Positions 1,601 to 25,889 of a stretch of DNA of 64,000 bases are shown here, one piece after another. This DNA comes from Pseudomonadota bacterium. Lineage in GTDB: Bacteria; Desulfobacterota; Desulfobulbia; Desulfobulbales; JAGXFP01. Position numbers and translations under genes: made by a program. The stretch spans positions 1 through 64,000 of the forward strand of contig JAHJAA010000006.1 of the NCBI GenBank assembly GCA_018814305.1. The letters run 5' to 3'. The notes below the pieces were generated by a model. The model did no database searches. It worked only from the letters and a program-made list of their open reading frames with translations, and was not told where the DNA came from. Every line of letters starts with the position of its first letter. Within the stretch, counting starts at the first letter, position 1.

Positions 1601-2716
1601 TCAATCTTCCTGAAGCATCAAGATTGTTTTGAGCCGGGTCTTACGGCCCGAAATCCCGAGTTTTTTTCGAATATTGTCACGATGAAATTCAATGGTCCTG
1701 ATTGATAGGTTGAGGAGGTTTGCGATTTCTTTGGTGGATTTGTTTTGTTTGATCAGGTTGGCAACCTTGAGTTCCGCCGGAGACAGATCGACTTCGTCCG
1801 AAAGGAGTTTTTGGAGTACCGGTGAGATAATTTGATCCAGGTTTTTTTTGATGATGGCGAGGTATTCCTGTTGTTCCCGATTTAACCTGGTTTTTTTCAG
1901 TTTCAGGAGGAATGGTTCTGTAAGTTCCTTGATCTGCAGGAGAAGATTGCGATTCATCTCCTCTTCTCGTTCAGCCAGATTTTCCAGATCTCCCTCGGAA
2001 AACTTCTGGAGAAGAACTCTTAGAGCGATATTCGATTGCTCAAGTTCGTGGTCTTTTTCCGTGAGGACCTGTTTTTTGGTCAGAAGATCGGTACGGGTCT
2101 GATCTAATTTCTGTTCAGTTGAATGAAGTTGTTCTGTTCGTTGATCAAGTAGTTCCGAAATCTGCTGATTGGCCTTCCCCAGTTCCTCGTTGGTATTGAG
2201 CAGGGCTCGTTCCGTATGCCATTTGCTGCACAAAGATGCGGCAAACTGCCTGACTTCTTCTGGGCGTACTGGCTTCTGCAGATAGAGCAGCTTATCCTCT
2301 GGTGGTACCTTTATGGCAATTTCAGCCGGATCAACATCGGTGAAAGCCGTCATGATCATAATGTTCGTGTCCTGATCAAATGTGCGGATCCGCTCCGCTG
2401 TCCACAGCCCATCTTTTCCCGGCGGCATTTTCATATCGAGAAAGACCATGGCAAATCTTTCATTGGCGGCAACCGATGCCTGGACTGCTTTGACGGCCTC
2501 TTCCCCTTGGGAGCAAGAGGTTAGTTGGTACCTTTTTTTGGGGGTTGACTTGTGCCCGTCGTTAAAGAGTTCTGTCCCAAGTGCCTGTAGCAATGATTTG
2601 GTGTTGTGTAGAGATGACGTTTCATCAGGGCAGAGTACCTGTTGCATCATTTTGTGAATATCGTGTTCGTCATCGACTATCAAAATTCTGAACGGTTTTG
2701 TTTCGGTGGTTCCCAT
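1601..2716 (-). CDS. Response regulator: N-terminal REC, coiled coil, C-terminal LuxR-type HTH
   Basis: FRILIVDDEHDIHKMMQQVL, FLDMKMPPGKDG, and C-terminal LSPAELKVANLIKQNKSTKEIANLLNLSIRTIEFHRDNIRKKLGI. Confidence 0.85.
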   Translation of the reverse strand: MGTTETKPFRILIVDDEHDIHKMMQQVLCPDETSSLHNTKSLLQALGTELFNDGHKSTPKKRYQLTSCSQGEEAVKAVQASVAANERFAMVFLDMKMPPGKDGLWTAERIRTFDQDTNIMIMTAFTDVDPAEIAIKVPPEDKLLYLQKPVRPEEVRQFAASLCSKWHTERALLNTNEELGKANQQISELLDQRTEQLHSTEQKLDQTRTDLLTKKQVLTEKDHELEQSNIALRVLLQKFSEGDLENLAEREEEMNRNLLLQIKELTEPFLLKLKKTRLNREQQEYLAIIKKNLDQIISPVLQKLLSDEVDLSPAELKVANLIKQNKSTKEIANLLNLSIRTIEFHRDNIRKKLGISGRKTRLKTILMLQED

Positions 2717-2789
2717 CGCCTGATTGTCTCCTGAAACTTAAAAAAATATCGATCTGGGTGGGCCAGGTCAGCTATTCTTGAAACCTATC

Positions 2790-4727
2790 TCAATCCCTCA
2801 TGAAGCGCGGGAAGAGGAGATGAAAGGTTGCGCCCCTTTTTGGTCCGGGACTTTCTGCATAGAGCTTGCCTTGAAGAGAGGTAACTGTATTGGCACACCA
2901 GTGGAGGCCGATTCCGGATGTTTCTTTAGATTTGGTTGAGTATCCTCGTTCAAAGATCTTCGTGAGGTTTTCCTGGTTGATGCCGATGCCGTTATCCGTA
3001 ACGGTACAATGGATAAATTCCGTATTTGACTCAAGTACCGTAAAGGCCTTGATGGTGATGATGCCTTGATTGGCATCTTGTTGTTGCAGAATCGCTTCCG
3101 CTGCATTGTTTAAGAGGTTCGTTAGAACGTGGAGTAGGGCGGTTTTTGCGACGATAATCTTTCCTGTGACCTCGATCATGCTTTCCAGAGAGATTCGTTG
3201 GGGGGCATACCGTTCCAGGTAGAGTAATTGTCCAGCGTTCTCGATCAATTGATTCATGGTGGTTTGTTCGTAATATCGTTTGGATGAAGTAAACTGTTCC
3301 TGGTCGTAAAGAATTTTTTCAATTATTGAGATCCGATGGTTCATTACGGTCAAACGGGCGACGGCATCGTTTGTGATGTTTTTAAGATGATGGATTGCAG
3401 TGGAAAAATACTGCTGAAGCAATTCTCTCCGTTCTATGGGGGGAGTTGCTTCCATAAGTTCTTTGCAGGCTTTTTCCATTTGCTCATGGGGAATTTCACT
3501 AATCTCTTCCTTGAGCAAACCGATATCGACCAGGAGTGGAGTCAGTCCGTTGCGGATATTATGCATGGCCCCGGAAGCCATTTCAGCCATTCCGGTATAA
3601 TATGATTGTTCAACTAGCTGTTTTCGGGCCTTGTTCTTGATTGCAAGCATATCATCAAATTCCCGGGCCAGAATTCCGATTTCGTTCTTGGATATGAGCG
3701 TCTGGGGAATACGAGCGTCGGAGGTTCCATTGTTCTTCAAGCCGATGGCATGACGGGTCAGTCGGTCAATCGGGGTCACGACGATATGGCGAATAATTTC
3801 AAGGAGGATAACCAGGATCAGGAGTCCACTGGCAATGGTTGAAACCAGAGTTCCACTAAGAACATCCCGCCCGAGAGCTGTAATAGTTCGGGTGATTTGG
3901 ACCCGCAGTAAGAGGCTTGCCTTGCCGGAGATATCATCCATGATTGCGTAAATGTGGAGATGTTTGTCGTTGATCTCCTCTACGAGGGGGGTGTCGATGT
4001 CCGTGATTTCGGCGAGGAGAGAATCTGAAGGTGGATTGGTTCCTTTTTTGACCGACATTAAACACGGCTTGTCCGGGCAGGAGAAAGCATCATTCGTCAA
4101 CCCTTCGGGGCAGATGAGCTCCATAATGTCGAAATCAACATTGATCATGTTGCTGAATTCGATTCGAAGTTCATCGCTCAAGAATCGGCCCATGATAAAT
4201 GTCCCGCGAGGGGGGCCGTTATCCATTGAGGTGAGAATTGGTTGAGCGGCAATGAGCATCGGGCCATGGGCTGTATTCATGATTCCCTTGGCTGCTTGGG
4301 TCAAGAGGGGGTGGTCTTTGGGAAAGGTGGTCGTGGGGAGTTCCGGGAGAAAAAGTGGGGCGGATTCTTCATCCATCCGCGTCTCGCCCCAGGCCACATG
4401 CCCTGCTTCATCGATGATGAAAAGGGCATTAATCTGATTTGTGGAATAGGTTGATGGTATGAGGTTTGATTCGACATACCCTTCATTCCGATCATGAACG
4501 AAACTGTACGTGTCATCCCAGGCGCCCCAGTCGGTGGCCAGACTCTCGAGGCGATTGATCTCATGATTGATCACGGCCTGGATTCGTTGCAGATCTTTGA
4601 GTGATTCTTCTTTTTCAATCCGTTGGAATACCGGGAAGACGATATAGCTTTGGCCTAACCCAATAAATGCCGTCAACAGTACAATAGAAATCAGAATCGT
4701 GAAGAAAATTTCTTTTCTGAGTGTCAT
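2790..4727 (-). CDS. Membrane sensor histidine kinase with CHASE4-like sensor, HAMP and HATPase domains
   Basis: N-terminal TM; DWGAWDDTYSFV (CHASE4-like); MHNIRNGLTPLL H-box; NLLNNAAEAIL N-box; DNGIGINQENLTKIFERGYSTK and SGIGLHWCANT G-boxes. Confidence 0.85.
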   Translation of the reverse strand: MTLRKEIFFTILISIVLLTAFIGLGQSYIVFPVFQRIEKEESLKDLQRIQAVINHEINRLESLATDWGAWDDTYSFVHDRNEGYVESNLIPSTYSTNQINALFIIDEAGHVAWGETRMDEESAPLFLPELPTTTFPKDHPLLTQAAKGIMNTAHGPMLIAAQPILTSMDNGPPRGTFIMGRFLSDELRIEFSNMINVDFDIMELICPEGLTNDAFSCPDKPCLMSVKKGTNPPSDSLLAEITDIDTPLVEEINDKHLHIYAIMDDISGKASLLLRVQITRTITALGRDVLSGTLVSTIASGLLILVILLEIIRHIVVTPIDRLTRHAIGLKNNGTSDARIPQTLISKNEIGILAREFDDMLAIKNKARKQLVEQSYYTGMAEMASGAMHNIRNGLTPLLVDIGLLKEEISEIPHEQMEKACKELMEATPPIERRELLQQYFSTAIHHLKNITNDAVARLTVMNHRISIIEKILYDQEQFTSSKRYYEQTTMNQLIENAGQLLYLERYAPQRISLESMIEVTGKIIVAKTALLHVLTNLLNNAAEAILQQQDANQGIITIKAFTVLESNTEFIHCTVTDNGIGINQENLTKIFERGYSTKSKETSGIGLHWCANTVTSLQGKLYAESPGPKRGATFHLLFPRFMRD

Positions 4728-5183: not shown

Positions 5184-5218
5184 AAAAAAAAGGCCGGAAC
5201 GAGGGGATCGTTCCGGCC
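5184..5218 (-). terminator. Rho-independent terminator of the octaheme cytochrome gene
   Basis: Perfect 11-bp stem GGCCGGAACGA/TCGTTCCGGCC followed on the minus strand by a T8 run; lies just after the stop at 5269. Confidence 0.85.
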
Positions 5219-5268
5219 CGGGGAGAAATGCTCGGAAAATGGATGCTCAACCAGGGGTTGAGGGAGGA

Positions 5269-6603
5269 TTAATCCATTTTCTGATTGTACCGCTCTTTGT
5301 AATAATCTTTGATTTCAGAGAGGCGTTTGGGGTCAAAGCCTTTGGTGAACCAGGCATGCCGTGGATCGCCGTCAATGTACTTCTTGATGATCTCTTCATA
5401 CACCTCTGGTTTCCCGGCCTTCTTGCAGGCCTCTTCGGCCTCGGGCAGCATCTCGGTGTAAAAGTGCTTGGCCACATCGTAGATGCCGTGCCACCAGGCG
5501 TAGTCAGGTCCGGACATGGCGGCTCCGTGGCGGGCCCGGCGTCCTTCATGGTGCCATAATTCCCAATAGATCCAGTCGATCTTGTCATCGAAGTTGGCCT
5601 TGGTCAACACTCCTTTGTCCATGAGAATGGCGCGAATTTCCTTGGCTGGAACTGCGAATTTGGTGTTGTAGAGATCGACGAAGTCATCGAGTTGCTTGTA
5701 GAATCCATCGACAAAGGTCTTGCTGTGGCAGGAGGTGCAGACATCCTGCATGTTGGCGAGTTTCTGTGGGGAATCCTTGGTCCGTGAGGACACGGCTGCG
5801 CGAAGATCCCAGCTTAACCGGGCACCCACATCATGGGTCACGGCCTGGGTGGAGGTTGCGCCGAGATGACAGGTGGAACAGGTGGGGGCATCGAAATAAT
5901 CTTCACCCGGAACCCATTTAGGACGATCCATGTTCAGTTCATCTTCATAGGCCCGGTAGAGAATCCCGTGCTTCGATTCTTCGTAGACCTCTTTCTGGGG
6001 ATGGTCCGGTCCCAGGTGGCATTTGCCGCAGACCTCGGGTTTTCTGGCCTGTTCCTTACTGAATCGGTGTCTGGTATGGCAGGCGCTACAGGTTCCCTTG
6101 GAGCCGTCCGGGTTGACCCGACCGATTCCGGTATTTGGCCAGGTTGAAGGATCAAGGCTGCCATCAGCCTTAGTCTTGACCAGTGAGCCGTGGCATTGCC
6201 GACATCCAACAGCAACTGCCGGTTCACCACCAAGCGTCTGCCCCAGTAAGCCGTCATTGGAATTTAAGATATTGCCGGCTTCAGCGTGGTGGCTCGCTTC
6301 CTGTTCGGCGCTTTCTTTGGCATGACATCGGCCGCAATCTTTTGGCGAGACAATGGTTGCCACCAGAAAACCATTGTGATCCATGGCGTCGGCATCACCT
6401 TTCTGAGCTACATGGCATTCAAAACATCCGACTCCGGCCTGCCAGTGAGGGCTTGACTCCCACTGGGTGACGATGCCGGGCATCAAGTCGGCATGACAGG
6501 CGAGACATTCTGTTGTGTCCTTTGACACTGCGGCCCAGGCGGAACCACCGACACCCAGCATCACCAGCATTCCTGCTGAAAGTTGAAACGCTAATTTTTT
6601 CAT
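5269..6603 (-). CDS. Octaheme c-type cytochrome, hydroxylamine oxidoreductase (HAO)-like family
   Basis: Signal peptide; eight CxxCH motifs (CLACH, CFECH, CGRCH, CRQCH, CSACH, CGKCH, CSTCH, CTSCH); C-terminal HHEGRRARHGAAMSGPDYAWWHGIYDV helix region typical of HAO-like proteins; AAAGGAG ribosome-binding site upstream. Confidence 0.85.
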   Translation of the reverse strand: MKKLAFQLSAGMLVMLGVGGSAWAAVSKDTTECLACHADLMPGIVTQWESSPHWQAGVGCFECHVAQKGDADAMDHNGFLVATIVSPKDCGRCHAKESAEQEASHHAEAGNILNSNDGLLGQTLGGEPAVAVGCRQCHGSLVKTKADGSLDPSTWPNTGIGRVNPDGSKGTCSACHTRHRFSKEQARKPEVCGKCHLGPDHPQKEVYEESKHGILYRAYEDELNMDRPKWVPGEDYFDAPTCSTCHLGATSTQAVTHDVGARLSWDLRAAVSSRTKDSPQKLANMQDVCTSCHSKTFVDGFYKQLDDFVDLYNTKFAVPAKEIRAILMDKGVLTKANFDDKIDWIYWELWHHEGRRARHGAAMSGPDYAWWHGIYDVAKHFYTEMLPEAEEACKKAGKPEVYEEIIKKYIDGDPRHAWFTKGFDPKRLSEIKDYYKERYNQKMD

Positions 6604-6654
6604 AACTCTTTCTCCTTTGTTAGTTTGTATTGCTACGTCCTGCTTTTTATAGAG

Positions 6655-6669
6655 GCAAAGAGTGTGCCA
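6655..6669 (-). promoter_or_regulatory. Sigma54 (-24/-12) promoter for the HAO-like gene
   Basis: Minus strand reads TGGCAC-ACTCT-TTGC; GG and GC separated by exactly 10 nt; about 50 nt upstream of the ATG at 6603. Confidence 0.85.
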
Positions 6670-6721: not shown

Positions 6722-6774
6722 GTTACTTTTTGGTTACGTTACTGGTTGGCTTAGTGTTACCATAAGGTTACGTG
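6722..6774. promoter_or_regulatory. Candidate enhancer (UAS) array: two copies of GTTAC-N6-GTTACGT plus an extra GTTAC
   Basis: GTTAC at 6722, 6733, 6738, 6756, 6767; two 11-bp-spaced pairs offset by 34 bp, lying between two sigma54-like promoters. Confidence 0.6.
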
Positions 6775-6931: not shown

Positions 6932-6947
6932 TGGCTGGAATTTTGCT
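6932..6947 (+). promoter_or_regulatory. Second, weaker sigma54-like promoter facing the heme-sensor kinase operon
   Basis: TGGCTGGAATTTTGCT: GG and GC separated by 10 nt, intact TTGCT -12 element, but TG instead of AC in the -24 element. Confidence 0.5.
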
Positions 6948-6997: not shown

Positions 6998-8542
6998 GTG
7001 AAGGCCATGAGGCTGCGGATTAAAATGTCTTTGCTGGTCAGTTGTACGGTGGCCATCTCCTTTGGCGTTACCTTTGCCAAGGTCTCTTCTTTTCAGCACG
7101 GACTGGTGATCGGGCAGGCCGAACGGCAGGCCCGGATGCTGGCCCAGCAGATTATGCTGACCAGAAAGTGGGTTGCGGACCATGATGGTCTTTTTCTCAT
7201 CAAGAAACCCGGAGTCGAAAAGAATCCGTTTCTGCCGGAGGGTGAAGTTCGGTCTGATGATGGTCAGGTGTACGTTAAACGGAATCCGGCCATGGTGACC
7301 CGCGAGCTTTCCGAGTATGCCGCCCATGATGATTTCTGCCGATTCCGGGTGACCAGTCTGAAACCGGTCAATCCGGCCAACAGTCCAGATGCCTTTGAGC
7401 GGTCGAGTCTGCAGGCCTTTGAAGGAGGGCGGCAGGAGGCCCTCGAAATTAAAGACGGAGCCTCCGGCCGGGTTCTTCGGTTTATGATGCCCTTAAAGGT
7501 TGAGGAGTCATGTCTCGATTGTCACGCCATCCATGGATATCAGGTTGGAGATGTCCGAGGTGGGCTCAGTCTCGAAATTCCAATTTCCTGGGCGGATGAG
7601 ACAATTGCCGCCAACAATCGGATTTTGCTGGTGGCCGGGAGTTTGACTATTTTGATAACCGCCCTGACCATTTTTCTCTTGATTGACACCATCGTGGTTC
7701 GGCGGTTGGGATGGTTGGCTCTTGCCATGAATCGCTTTACCGGAGGGGAACTCCCGCAACAACGACTCCCGGCAGGTACTGATGAAATCGCCGGGCTGGC
7801 TGGCAATTTTCGAGATTTAGCCGGTCGTTTGGTGCGCTCCCAGGGCGAACTTGATCAGACCCGGGACCAGATGATTCAACAGGAGAAGATGGCAGCCGTG
7901 GGGCGATTGGCGGCCGGCATTGCCCATGAGATCAACAATCCCCTGGGCGGGATGCGAAACTGTGTCAAGAGTATGCGGGAGGCCCCTGAGGATAGTGGGA
8001 TGAGGAACCGGTATCTGGAGCTCATTGATACCGGTTTACAGAGAATCGGCCGGATCGTCCGGCAATTGCTGGATTTTGGCCGGAAGGATCCACTTTGTCT
8101 GCGGGAGGTTCGCATCGATGAGGTGATCCGGGAATGTTTGGGGTTGCTGGAGTATCAGTTGAAACAGATCAAGGTCAAGCTTGATCTTAGGCTCGATCAA
8201 CCGGCCCTGGTGGACGTGGAGGCGTTGAAACAGGTCTTGGTCAACCTGGCCTTGAACGGGATTCAGGCCATGCCGGATGGTGGAACCCTGACCGTCTTCA
8301 GTCGATACCGGGGCGGAGCAATTGAAATCATCTTTCGGGATACCGGGGTTGGCATTGCCCCTGAGCATCTTCACCATATTTTTGAACCGTTCTTTACCAC
8401 CAAGGAGATCGGTCAGGGTACCGGCCTTGGCCTGTCGGTTTCCTATGCCCTGGTTGGCAGAATGGGTGGGGAGATTACTCTGGACAGTGTGCCGGGGCAA
8501 GGATCTGATTTTCGAATTGTTCTTCCACCTCAGGGGGCTTGA
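6998..8542 (+). CDS. Heme-binding sensor histidine kinase (DUF3365/Tll0287-like periplasmic domain with CxxCH, HAMP, HisKA, HATPase)
   Basis: N-terminal TM, EESCLDCHAIHGYQVGDVRGGLSLEIPI, second TM, GRLAAGIAHEINNPLGGMRN H-box, FFTTKEIGQGTGLGLSVSYALV. Confidence 0.88.
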   Translation: MKAMRLRIKMSLLVSCTVAISFGVTFAKVSSFQHGLVIGQAERQARMLAQQIMLTRKWVADHDGLFLIKKPGVEKNPFLPEGEVRSDDGQVYVKRNPAMVTRELSEYAAHDDFCRFRVTSLKPVNPANSPDAFERSSLQAFEGGRQEALEIKDGASGRVLRFMMPLKVEESCLDCHAIHGYQVGDVRGGLSLEIPISWADETIAANNRILLVAGSLTILITALTIFLLIDTIVVRRLGWLALAMNRFTGGELPQQRLPAGTDEIAGLAGNFRDLAGRLVRSQGELDQTRDQMIQQEKMAAVGRLAAGIAHEINNPLGGMRNCVKSMREAPEDSGMRNRYLELIDTGLQRIGRIVRQLLDFGRKDPLCLREVRIDEVIRECLGLLEYQLKQIKVKLDLRLDQPALVDVEALKQVLVNLALNGIQAMPDGGTLTVFSRYRGGAIEIIFRDTGVGIAPEHLHHIFEPFFTTKEIGQGTGLGLSVSYALVGRMGGEITLDSVPGQGSDFRIVLPPQGA

Positions 8543-8609
8543 TCGGCCAAGATGAGGTGGTGGTCGCCCGTGGAGTGGGGCGAGGAGTGGATGATTTATA
8601 ACGAGAGGA

Positions 8610-9947
8610 TTGAATATGCCGAGAATACTGCTGGTTGAAGATGATGAAATCATGCGGGTGACCCTCTTTGACCGTCTCAAAGGGATGGGGTTTGAGGTGG
8701 ATCAGGAGGCCAACGGCCGCGATGCTTTGCTGAAGATCGAATCCCAGGAGTATCACCTGATCATCTCAGACATCAAGATGCCAGGATTGGATGGGGTCAG
8801 GTTGCTTGAGGAGGCGCGGAAGGTGGCGCCCAATGCCGATATTATTCTGATGACCGCTTACGGCAGCGTGGAGGACGCGGTGAGTTGTTTGAAAAAAGGG
8901 GCGGCTGATTATATCCTGAAGCCCTTTGATATGGATGATCTGACCATCAGGGTGAACCGGTTGCTGTCGGTTCGCAAGATGAAAACCCGATGTACTTCAC
9001 TGGAGGAAAATGTTCGTCCCGCGAGGATTATCGGCCGGAGTCCGGCCATGGCAGAGCTTGCTGAGTTAATCGACCGAGTGGCCGACTCCGATTCCACTAT
9101 CCTGATTACCGGAGAATCCGGGACCGGCAAGGAACTGGTGGCAGCAGCCCTCCATTATCAAAGTGGCCGGTCCGGGGGACCCTATGTCAAGGTCAACTGC
9201 GGTGCCATCCAGGAACACCTGATCGAATCGGAACTGTTCGGCCATGAAAAGGGGGCCTTTACCGGGGCCCTGGCTCGTAAGATTGGTCGATTTGAGATGG
9301 CCGATGGCGGCACTCTGCTTTTAGATGAGATCGGCGATCTCCCGTTACATCTTCAGGTCAAACTGCTCCGGGTTCTGCAGGAGCGCGAAATTGAACGGGT
9401 GGGGTCGGGACGACCAATTCGAATTGATGTTCGAATCCTTTGCGCTACCGCCAAGGATTTGAAGGAAGAGGTCAAGGCCGGGCGATTCCGGGAAGATCTC
9501 TTTTATCGATTACAGGTCATTCCTCTCTTTGTCCCCCCGCTCCGGGAGCGGAAAGAGGATATTCCCGATCTGGTCCGCTATTTTCTTGATGAGTTTCAAG
9601 TGATGCGCGGTATGGGGCTGGATCTTTCACCTGGTGGACTCAGCTGTTTGATGGGGTACAATTTCCCCGGGAATATTCGGGAGTTGCGGAATATCATTGA
9701 GCGGGCCTCGGTTCTGACCCGATCCTCGACCATCGATCTTTTGGAATTGCCCAGGGATTTGACCCTGGATACCCCTGGTGAGGATAGTGATTTTGGGCTG
9801 GCTGAGGCGGTCGGTCGGACTGAACAGCAGTATATTCTGAAGGCCCTGCGGAAGACGGGAGGGGTGAAAAACGAGGCGGCGGCTCTCCTGGGGATCAGTC
9901 GGAAGAATCTCTGGGAAAAGATGAAGACGTATCAGCTTGAAATTTAG
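8610..9947 (+). CDS. Sigma54-dependent NtrC-family response regulator (REC-AAA+-HTH)
   Basis: [34 protein letters not shown] Walker [16 protein letters not shown] (GAFTGA loop); C-terminal Fis-type [21 protein letters not shown]. Confidence 0.92.
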
Positions 9948-10039
9948 TGCTGGTTTATCCGGGATTGATTCAAGGCTTGAATGAATCAGAAAACCAAGGG
10001 AGTTGATCCGGCTCTTTTGGGTGTGATACGCTGGTTGGC

Positions 10040-10771
10040 ATGGGGCATAAGCATAACAAAAAACAGCGGCATGAGAAGGTTCATGAAACCCGCCGGCCAC
10101 CGGTTAAGGGAGGCTCTGAAGTTGTTCAAGAACCGCCCCGTCTGGAAATTGTCCTAAAGGCCGATTCCGACGGCAGTCGTGGGGCGGTTGCTGCGGAGAT
10201 TAATCGGATTTCTGCGGAGATCCCCGTGGGGGTCATCCACTCCGGGGTAGGCGATATAACTCAATCCGATCTTTTTTTTGCTGAAACCGCCAGTCGCCTG
10301 GTCATCGGGTTTGGGGTTGATCTCGTTTCTGGAGTCAGGGCGGGCGTCGAACAATCAGGAGTTGAGGTGCGACTGTACCGCTTGATTTACCCCTTGGCCG
10401 AGGATTTAAAAAGGATAGCGGCAAGCCTGGTTCCCAAAGGCGAGAGCGAAACCGTTATCGGCCAGGCCAAGGTGATTGCCCTCTTTAAGAGCTGTCGACA
10501 TGGTTCGATCCTTGGTTGTGAGTTGGTGGCAGGGCGCCTGGCCCTGGGGGACCACTTTCGGGTAATCAGCGGCATGGGCCCGATCTACTCCGGGCGGATA
10601 AAATCACTTCAAATTGGGGACCGTGCGGTGGACCAGGCCGGGGTTGGTCGGCAGGTCGGGCTCAAGATCGAAGACTTCAATCGCGGGGCCATCGGCGATC
10701 TGGTGGAAAGCTATAGGCCAATCCAGCCACCTATTCCCTGGCGACCGGATCCCGGCGTTTGCCAATTCTAA
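10040..10771 (+). CDS. Standalone IF-2 C-terminal-domain paralogue lacking the GTPase domain
   Basis: LEIVLKADSDGSRGAVAAEINRIS...VGVIHSGVGDITQSDLFFAETASRLVIGFGVDL...VRLYRLIYPLAEDLKRI...IGQAKVIALFKSCRHGSILGCELVAGRLALGDHFRVI...VGLKIEDFNRGAIGDLVESY resembles InfB domains III-IV/C2; no G1-G4 motifs. Confidence 0.8.
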   Translation: MGHKHNKKQRHEKVHETRRPPVKGGSEVVQEPPRLEIVLKADSDGSRGAVAAEINRISAEIPVGVIHSGVGDITQSDLFFAETASRLVIGFGVDLVSGVRAGVEQSGVEVRLYRLIYPLAEDLKRIAASLVPKGESETVIGQAKVIALFKSCRHGSILGCELVAGRLALGDHFRVISGMGPIYSGRIKSLQIGDRAVDQAGVGRQVGLKIEDFNRGAIGDLVESYRPIQPPIPWRPDPGVCQF

Positions 10772-10774
10772 AAA

Positions 10775-11698
10775 TTACTTCAACAGATCCGTACTCAGGT
10801 AGCGTTCACCCGTATCGGGGAGGACGACCACCAGGGTTTTGCCCCGGTTTTCCTCCCGGTTGGCAACCTGAAGGGCCGCCCAGGCGGCTGCCCCGGAGGA
10901 GATGCCACAGAGGATCCCCTCCTTGGCGGCCAGGAGTTTGGCCGTGCCGATGGCGTCTTCATTGGTGACCTGGACGATTTCGTCAATGATGCCGGTGTTT
11001 AAGACCTTGGGGATGAAGCCTGCCCCGATGCCCTGGATCTTGTGGGGGCCGGGGGCACCGCCGGAGAGAACCGGAGACGCCGTTGGTTCGACCGCCACGG
11101 CATAAAATGATGGTTTGCGGGCCTTGATCACTTCGGAGACTCCGGTGATGGTGCCGCCGGTACCGACCCCGGCCACTAATATATCAACCCGGCCTTCGGT
11201 ATCATTCCAGATTTCCAAAGCGGTGGTGGTGCGATGGATCTCGGGGTTGGCAGGGTTTTCGAACTGGTTGGGCATGAAGGCATTGGCGGTGTTTGCGGTG
11301 AGTTCTGTGGCCTTGGCAATGGCCCCCTTCATTCCCTCCGGACCTGGGGTGAGCACCAGTTCCGCTCCAAGATGCTTTAAGAGCTGGCGTCGTTCCATGC
11401 TCATGGTTTCCGGCATGGTGAGGATCAGCCGATACCCCTTGGCGGCACAGATCATGGCCAGGGCAATGCCAGTATTGCCGCTGGTGGGCTCGATGATCAC
11501 CGTGTCGTGGTTGACCTGTCCGGACTGCTCGGCGGCGTCGATCATGGCCTTGCCGATCCGGTCCTTGACGCTGAACAGGGGATTTCGGGATTCCAGTTTG
11601 GCCAGGATGGTGACCCCTGAATCCGGGGCCAGATGGTTAAGCCGGATCAGCGGGGTATTGCCGATGGCCTGGGAAATGTCGGAATAGATTCCACTCAT
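10775..11698 (-). CDS. cysK: Cysteine synthase A (O-acetylserine sulfhydrylase)
   Basis: [72 protein letters not shown]. Confidence 0.95.
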
Positions 11699-12678
11699 GT
11701 TGTTCTCCTTTTGTCGTTTTTTTTGCCATTGCCCGAGTAAACCAGTTCCGGCTTTTTCAGGATAACTTTGGTGTCCGGTGGGACGCTTTCGGTGATCCAG
11801 ATATTACCGCCGATCACGCTGCGGGTGCCGATTACGGTTTCGCCGCCAAGGATGGTTGAGTTTGCATAGACGATGACGTCATCCTCGATGGTGGGATGGC
11901 GTTTGACGTTGCGAAAACGTTTTCCGGCATCGGTCGGCAGGGAGAGGGCGCCCAGGGTGACGCCCTGGTAGAGTCGGACCCGGTTGCCGATGATGGTGGT
12001 CTCTCCGATGACCACCCCAGTGCCGTGGTCGATGAAAAAATGCGAGCCGATGGCGGCGCCGGGATGGATATCGATCCCAGTGAGACTATGGGCATATTCG
12101 GTCATGATTCGGGGCAGAACCGGGACCTGCATTCGGTGCAGTTCATGGGCCAGGCGATAGACACTGATGGCCAAAAGACCGGGATAGCTGAAGATCACCT
12201 CGTCGGCCCCCTTGGCGGCCGGATCACCATCAAGGGCGGCCTGGATGTCGTTGGCCAGTTGCTCGCTGATTTCGGGTAGTCGTTCGATGAAGCGAATTGC
12301 TTTTTCCGCACCTTGGACCTTGCAACGGGTACAAGTCTGGCGGGCCTGGAAGCATTCGTGCTGGATGGCCAGGACGATCTGGGCGGAGAGCTTTTCAAAG
12401 AGCTCGGTGGTCTCTTGACCCAGGCAGTATTCCAGGTTGGCCGGATTGATCGAGGTCGGTGAGAAATAGCCGGGGAAGAGGATGCGCCTCGCCTGCTGGA
12501 TGATCTCAACTACCTTGGCATGGGTGGGAATGGGAATTGAGCCCAGGTGGTCGAAACAGCCATGCCGGTTGCAGGAAGCGGCCAGCTTTTTAACCACCGG
12601 CGGGATATCATCGTAGAAATGGTTAGTGCTTTCCGCATCATCAATGCATTCTTTATTATCGATATCCTTGATAAACAT
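11695..12678 (-). CDS. cysE: Serine O-acetyltransferase (hexapeptide-repeat)
   Basis: [42 protein letters not shown]; overlaps the cysK start. Confidence 0.9.
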
Positions 12679-25650: not shown

Positions 25651-25726
25651 TGGAGGCGACGAGCGGAGTCGAACCGCTGAATAAAGGTTTTGCAGACCTC
25701 TGCCTTAGCCACTTGGCTACGTCGCC
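25651..25726 (-). tRNA. tRNA-Cys (GCA), CCA encoded
   Basis: Minus strand GGCGACGTAGCCAAGTGGCTAAGGCAGAGGTCTGCAAAACCTTTATTCAGCGGTTCGACTCCGCTCGTCGCCTCCA folds as a cloverleaf, anticodon GCA. Confidence 0.95.
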
Positions 25727-25889
25727 TTTAGCGGGTCAATTTAAAACATAGTTTAGTGGTTTTGACAAGAGGAAAATTCAGCCGCCCGCAGCACGGTTGG
25801 CGAGGTTTGGCCCCAGGGCCGAATTCATCACCACCTGATCAAATGATTTCTCAAAAGTGGCGACGTTAAAAGCAACGAAGGGACATTTC

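Follow-up and report, generated by a model that had tools for sequence, protein, structure and literature searches.

A predicted sigma54-dependent, nitrogen-oxide-responsive switch for an HAO-family octaheme cytochrome gene

Organization of the locus

The window (the whole stretch of DNA analysed here, 64 kb in length) carries a gene for an HAO-family octaheme cytochrome c on its minus strand and, divergently oriented, the genes of a sensor histidine kinase and an NtrC-type response regulator. The features of this region are as follows.

5191–5219, minus strand: strong intrinsic terminator 3′ of the cytochrome gene (12-pair stem and T run)
5269–6603, minus strand: HAO-family octaheme cytochrome c, 444 aa (PF13447; eight CXXCH motifs; signal-peptide-like start)
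6612–6617, minus strand: ribosome-binding site AAGGAG before the cytochrome ATG (read from the sequence)
6655–6669, minus strand: sigma54 (−24/−12) promoter element TGGCACACTCTTTGC (exact match; 16.2 bits; same place relative to the operators in relatives)
6722–6737, no strand assigned: putative proximal operator palindrome GTAACCAAAAAGTAAC, given on the coding strand (agrees with the consensus at 10 of 12 positions and has the family's spacing and gap)
6756–6771, no strand assigned: putative distal operator palindrome GTAACCTTATGGTAAC, given on the coding strand (11 of 12 consensus positions; part of the genome's sole tandem pair)
6932–6947, plus strand: possible weak sigma54 site TGGCTGGAATTTTGCT (score 13.0 bits; directed towards the kinase gene)
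7007–8542, plus strand: sensor histidine kinase with a periplasmic PF11845 domain (Tll0287-like, heme c CXXCH), HAMP, HisKA and HATPase (Pfam)
8616–9947, plus strand: NtrC-type response regulator with a receiver, a sigma54-interaction AAA+ domain with GAFTGA and a Fis-type HTH (Pfam)

An earlier, sequence-only reading of this DNA had described both a minus-strand gene for an HAO-like octaheme cytochrome and, next to it, a divergent operon encoding an NtrC-type regulator and a heme-sensor kinase, and profile searches bore out both descriptions. When the cytochrome was compared with solved structures by profile, the best match was 4qo5 (E 2.4e-67), the Ignicoccus octaheme cytochrome, followed by HAO structures (E ~1e-27). 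The terminator at 5219–5191 lies after the gene, which is therefore probably transcribed alone. In the kinase, the CXXCH motif of the PF11845 domain reads CLDCH in the translation, and the ATG at position 7007, preceded by AGAGG, was preferred to the GTG at 6998 as the start codon, since homologs align from the ATG.

Two further genetic units flank these genes. Downstream of the cytochrome gene (1601–4727, minus strand) lies another two-component pair, unrelated to the first and made up of a CHASE4 kinase and a LuxR-type regulator, and a 243-aa protein, whose sole Pfam match is a free-standing IF-2 domain (PF11987), is encoded 3′ of the regulator gene (10040–10771, plus strand).

The sigma54 site and the tandem palindromes

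The sequence-only reading had placed a sigma54 promoter about 50 nt before the cytochrome ATG. The sequence TGGCACACTCTTTGC is indeed present at 6669–6655 on the minus strand, with correctly spaced GG and GC dinucleotides, 51 nt 5′ of the ATG (6603), and it is the single exact occurrence of TGGCAC-N5-TTGC in the window. When one mismatch was allowed, five sites were found versus 3.6 expected by chance; taken by itself, the loose pattern therefore carries little weight, and it was left out of the argument. In a scan with an approximate sigma54 weight matrix (set down from the published consensus, without refitting, and applied with equally approximate thresholds), 6669–6655 scored 16.2 bits and was the sole site of at least 14 bits in the 64 kb, while shuffled windows contained 0.1 sites of at least 16 bits per 64 kb. 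The sigma factor RpoN is encoded in the same genome (TIGR02395, 456.9 bits versus a cut-off of 277), and transcription of the cytochrome gene is predicted to start at approx. 6643.

Two 16-bp palindromes (consensus GTTACC-N4-GGTAAC), which had formed no part of the earlier description of this promoter, are located between the sigma54 site and the kinase gene. The near edge of the proximal palindrome lies 52 bp upstream of the sigma54 site and the distal palindrome 34 bp from the proximal one. A degenerate tandem-pair pattern matched only once in the 4.15-Mb genome, at 6722–6771, and its reversed control not at all. We consider the pair, which is conserved beside the sigma54 site, to be a putative upstream activator site for an enhancer-binding protein; a literature search of incomplete coverage returned no relevant description of a GTTACC operator.

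The spacing of these elements is rigid. Among 59 distinct palindrome pairs collected over all fetched loci (themselves picked via the kinase, the cytochrome or the operator pattern), the start-to-start distance was 32, 33 or 34 bp in every case, in a search that permitted 30–36 bp. In 33 of the 59, a sigma54 site scoring 11 bits or more was present 50–56 bp from the pair, versus 0–3 in the other 7-bp bins sampled, and a minor second group at 36–42 bp was about one helical turn nearer. A hexameric activator binding near its promoter would need such a constant spacing.

Palindromes of the same type, approx. 82 bp apart, were also seen upstream of the cytochrome gene in two other genomes (L052, 5605–5703; L057, 1317–1414). 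The TGGCAC-like sequences found there have no −12 GC, and the arrangement is possibly a different or decayed one.

Co-occurrence of the promoter module with the kinase

Cytochrome orthologs at approximately 70% identity or more were gathered from genome collections and their upstream regions were compared. The palindromes together with the sigma54 site were present in all six orthologs with a linked kinase/NtrC-type regulator pair (the window, L034, L035, L006, L036 and L039; sigma54 site 50–54 bp from the palindromes, in L036 a weak one of 9.3 bits) versus none of the 27 without such a pair (Fisher p 9e-7, phylogeny ignored; the orthologs compared are related, and such p-values thus overstate their independence). 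Two orthologs at 78–82% identity (L031 and L033) have neither the linked kinase nor the promoter, and the closeness of the enzymes alone is therefore an insufficient explanation. Many orthologs, in Desulfuromonadales and other lineages, do without sigma54/operator control.

The association was also seen at the level of genomes, mostly metagenome-assembled. Of the order's 258 genomes, 23 contained the strict tandem pattern, and the genomes sampled from the phylum's other orders yielded no match (reversed controls, 0). The kinase sensor had a close homolog (E ≤ 1e-58) in 22 of the 23 genomes with the pattern versus 86 of the 235 others (Fisher p 2e-8, phylogeny ignored). The comparative data give the decisive support, and at the level of sequence they confirm 6669–6655 as a real sigma54 promoter. 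Control of the HAO-family enzyme through sigma54 by its own heme-sensor two-component system, as proposed in the sequence-only reading, is likewise supported by the presence of RpoN, the putative operators and this co-occurrence.

The sole genome with the strict pattern in which the kinase was not detected (G594, 94% complete) contains two tandem operator pairs with sigma54 sites on one contig (C191, locus L243). In another genome (G009), the kinase is encoded elsewhere, the cytochrome gene has no palindrome pair, and a pair is present at nrfA instead. Upstream of the intact kinase gene of this genome we observed a fragment matching the last 27 residues of the cytochrome (L185; C16, approx. 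25668–25748), the full-length gene, without operators, being on another contig; the fragment looks like a remnant of loss or relocation.

Genes preceded by the module in related genomes

Analysis of the relatives revealed that the module precedes several kinds of genes: (i) those of NrfA, the ammonia-forming nitrite reductase, and NrfH (L227–L230; L227 scores above the NF008339 and TIGR03153 cut-offs), (ii) napA (L233, above the cut-off; L290 and L291, 85% identical to L233; L190, L236 and L242, NapA-like), (iii) an NrfC/NrfD-like pair with an octaheme cytochrome (L243), and (iv) pairs of a tetraheme NrfH/NapC-type and an octaheme cytochrome (L201, L115, L116 and L118). In one further genome (G001; L203, 11531–15787), napA lies 553 bp beyond a window-type cytochrome gene, in the same orientation, and the kinase and regulator genes are divergent; as read from its genes, this locus is a compact nitrate-ammonification cluster. 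The appearance of the same circuit in front of Nap and Nrf genes indicates nitrogen-oxide reduction rather than hydroxylamine oxidation.

The genome of the window (96.7% complete) encodes NapA; NrfA was not found in it. No operator pair was found at its own napA, which means that nap and the cytochrome gene would not be co-regulated by this route in this genome.

The cytochrome itself was not assignable to the other nitrite reductases considered. All eight of its heme motifs are CXXCH and the CXXCK active-site motif is absent from the translation, which rules out a CXXCK octaheme nitrite reductase (TvNiR/TaNiR type), and its match to NrfA (PF02335, 19 bits) fell below the cut-off of 24.1. The profile alignment of its C-terminal part to HAO structures ends before the region of the heme 4 cross-link tyrosine, a mark of the oxidative type.

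It shares eight CXXCH motifs and homology with the HAO-family reductases (Kuenenia HAOr and the Ignicoccus hospitalis protein 4qo5, the best match) and differs from them in being shorter (444 aa), bacterial and probably encoded by a single-gene transcript, the likeness being one of sequence. A similar gene complement has been reported for Thermosulfurimonas dismutans and Dissulfuribacter thermophilus, which have Nap, no NrfA, and HAO homologs proposed as the nitrite reductase (PMC5276818); one of these homologs is encoded beside nap. In contrast to the window, a regulatory mechanism was not found described in that paper.

Interpretation of the circuit

The reading that we favor, with a probability of roughly 80%, is that the sigma54 promoter is controlled by the neighboring two-component system and serves as a nitrogen-oxide-responsive switch for an HAO-family octaheme reductase acting in nitrate ammonification.

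The strongest competing explanation accepts the DNA sites as real and holds that the cytochrome oxidizes hydroxylamine or serves more generally in electron transfer or detoxification, instead of reducing nitrite or another nitrogen oxide, and that the regulator senses a different stress. Octaheme cytochromes do have a broad substrate range (PMC5276818) and the gene occurs in many lineages without the NtrC-type regulator. We nevertheless regard this explanation as unlikely, since the NrfHA and NapA genes of relatives stand behind the same operator/promoter module, the genome of the window has NapA without NrfA, the best-matching solved structure is that of the Ignicoccus cytochrome, and most HAO-like enzymes outside the anammox bacteria are inferred to be reductive in a recent phylogeny (PMC12758564).

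A second explanation, which we judge improbable, is that the circuit is the NrfS-NrfR system of Desulfovibrio itself, with a different target. The NrfSR two-component system depends on sigma54, is induced by nitrite and controls nrfHA; sites for it have also been predicted at nap (PMC5701242, PMC6456213). The layout is also shared: at locus L279, from a Desulfovibrio-like genome, nrfHA stands opposite the genes of a PF11845 hybrid kinase and an NtrC-type regulator, which judging by the layout are presumably NrfSR. The system of the window resembles that of D. vulgaris and D. desulfuricans in its predicted sigma54 dependence, its position beside (putative) nitrite reductase genes, its 16-bp palindromic operators and, as far as the presumed kinase of L279 is concerned, its PF11845 domain. 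However, the regulators are 32–34% identical, and the recognition helix of the window regulator, a 10-residue sequence kept in nearly all linked relatives, differs from GISRGHWYEL (the presumed NrfR, L279 only). NrfR-type sites are GTC-N10-GAC (PMC6456213) and not GTTACC-N4-GGTAAC, the tandem operator (33-bp spacing, approx. 51 bp from the promoter) did not occur in any genome sampled outside the order, and the hybrid kinase of L279 carries receiver and Hpt domains, whereas that of the window is non-hybrid and faces an HAO-like octaheme gene in place of nrfHA. Given a regulator about one-third identical and a different recognition helix and operator, we class the system of the window apart from NrfSR.

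That the sigma54 match arose by chance, with the cytochrome gene driven by another promoter, is highly improbable: one-mismatch patterns are as frequent as expected and sigma70-like matches lie nearby, but the position of the site relative to the palindromes is fixed across many genomes, the promoter co-occurs with the regulator, and its strong score is unique in the window.

Under the favored reading, a nitrogen-oxide-responsive switch, the signal would enter through the kinase, which has the layout of sCache_heme (DUF3365/Tll0287) sensors, in which a CXXCH-bearing PF11845 domain is joined to HAMP and a histidine kinase. Signalling-type domains of this family have NO-sensor properties, and a tested signalling member binds NO (2026 preprint, PMC12889525). 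The kinase of the window is probably NO- or nitrite-responsive. The published sCache_heme work gives no nitrogen-respiration targets and nowhere mentions nitrite, whereas in the system of the window the domain is linked to a nap/nrf/octaheme regulon.

More distant PF11845 kinases are paired with other regulators, and the operator pair was not found at their loci (L195–L200). One of them (L196; G408, 7693–12256) is encoded with an unrelated OmpR-type regulator beside an nrfA-like gene and a tetraheme cytochrome gene, and in Desulfomonile-type genomes (L068–L070) PF11845 kinases lie beside an octaheme homolog, which fits a nitrogen-oxide signal. Further PF11845 proteins are encoded in genome G000 (C54 and C5).

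The circuit may accordingly be pictured as follows. Through its periplasmic heme-c Cache domain (PF11845), the kinase would perceive a nitrogen oxide, which is most likely NO itself or nitrite by way of NO, and would then phosphorylate the NtrC-type regulator, whose dimers would occupy both palindromes, three helical turns apart, and assemble the ATPase ring. The ring would contact RNA polymerase–sigma54 approx. 52 bp away and open the octaheme promoter, and the cytochrome produced would reduce a nitrogen oxide, most likely nitrite (or hydroxylamine or NO), downstream of the Nap nitrate reductase. The phosphotransfer, binding and activation steps are drawn from what is established for NtrC-type regulators.

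A more extensive proposal, which we put forward tentatively, is that these loci represent a previously undescribed nitrogen-oxide regulon of the order (probably Desulfobulbales), in which a heme-c NO-sensing kinase and an NtrC-type regulator, acting through a rigid twin operator approx. 51 bp from sigma54 promoters, may serve NrfHA, Nap or HAO-like octaheme modules depending on the genome; in the genome of the window, the nitrite-to-ammonium step would fall to the octaheme cytochrome in place of NrfA. Sulfur-cycling bacteria commonly have HAO-like octaheme cytochromes, but the reaction of these proteins is rarely known, and several ammonifiers have no NrfA. A regulatory code common to octaheme, Nap and Nrf genes would make the role of the octaheme protein directly testable, and the new heme-c NO-sensor family would gain a candidate physiological regulon. 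The signature (two copies of GTTACC-N4-GGTAAC 33 bp apart, 51 bp from TGGCAC-N5-TTGC) can also be searched for, pointing to nitrate-ammonification genes in uncultured genomes.

The kinase-facing site

Weak sigma54 sites directed towards the kinase gene were observed in three relatives (L004, L005 and L222), 94–98 bp from the operators, distances that differ from that of TGGCTGGAATTTTGCT in the window. The latter site is possibly, and in our view tentatively, a candidate for autoregulation of the kinase gene.
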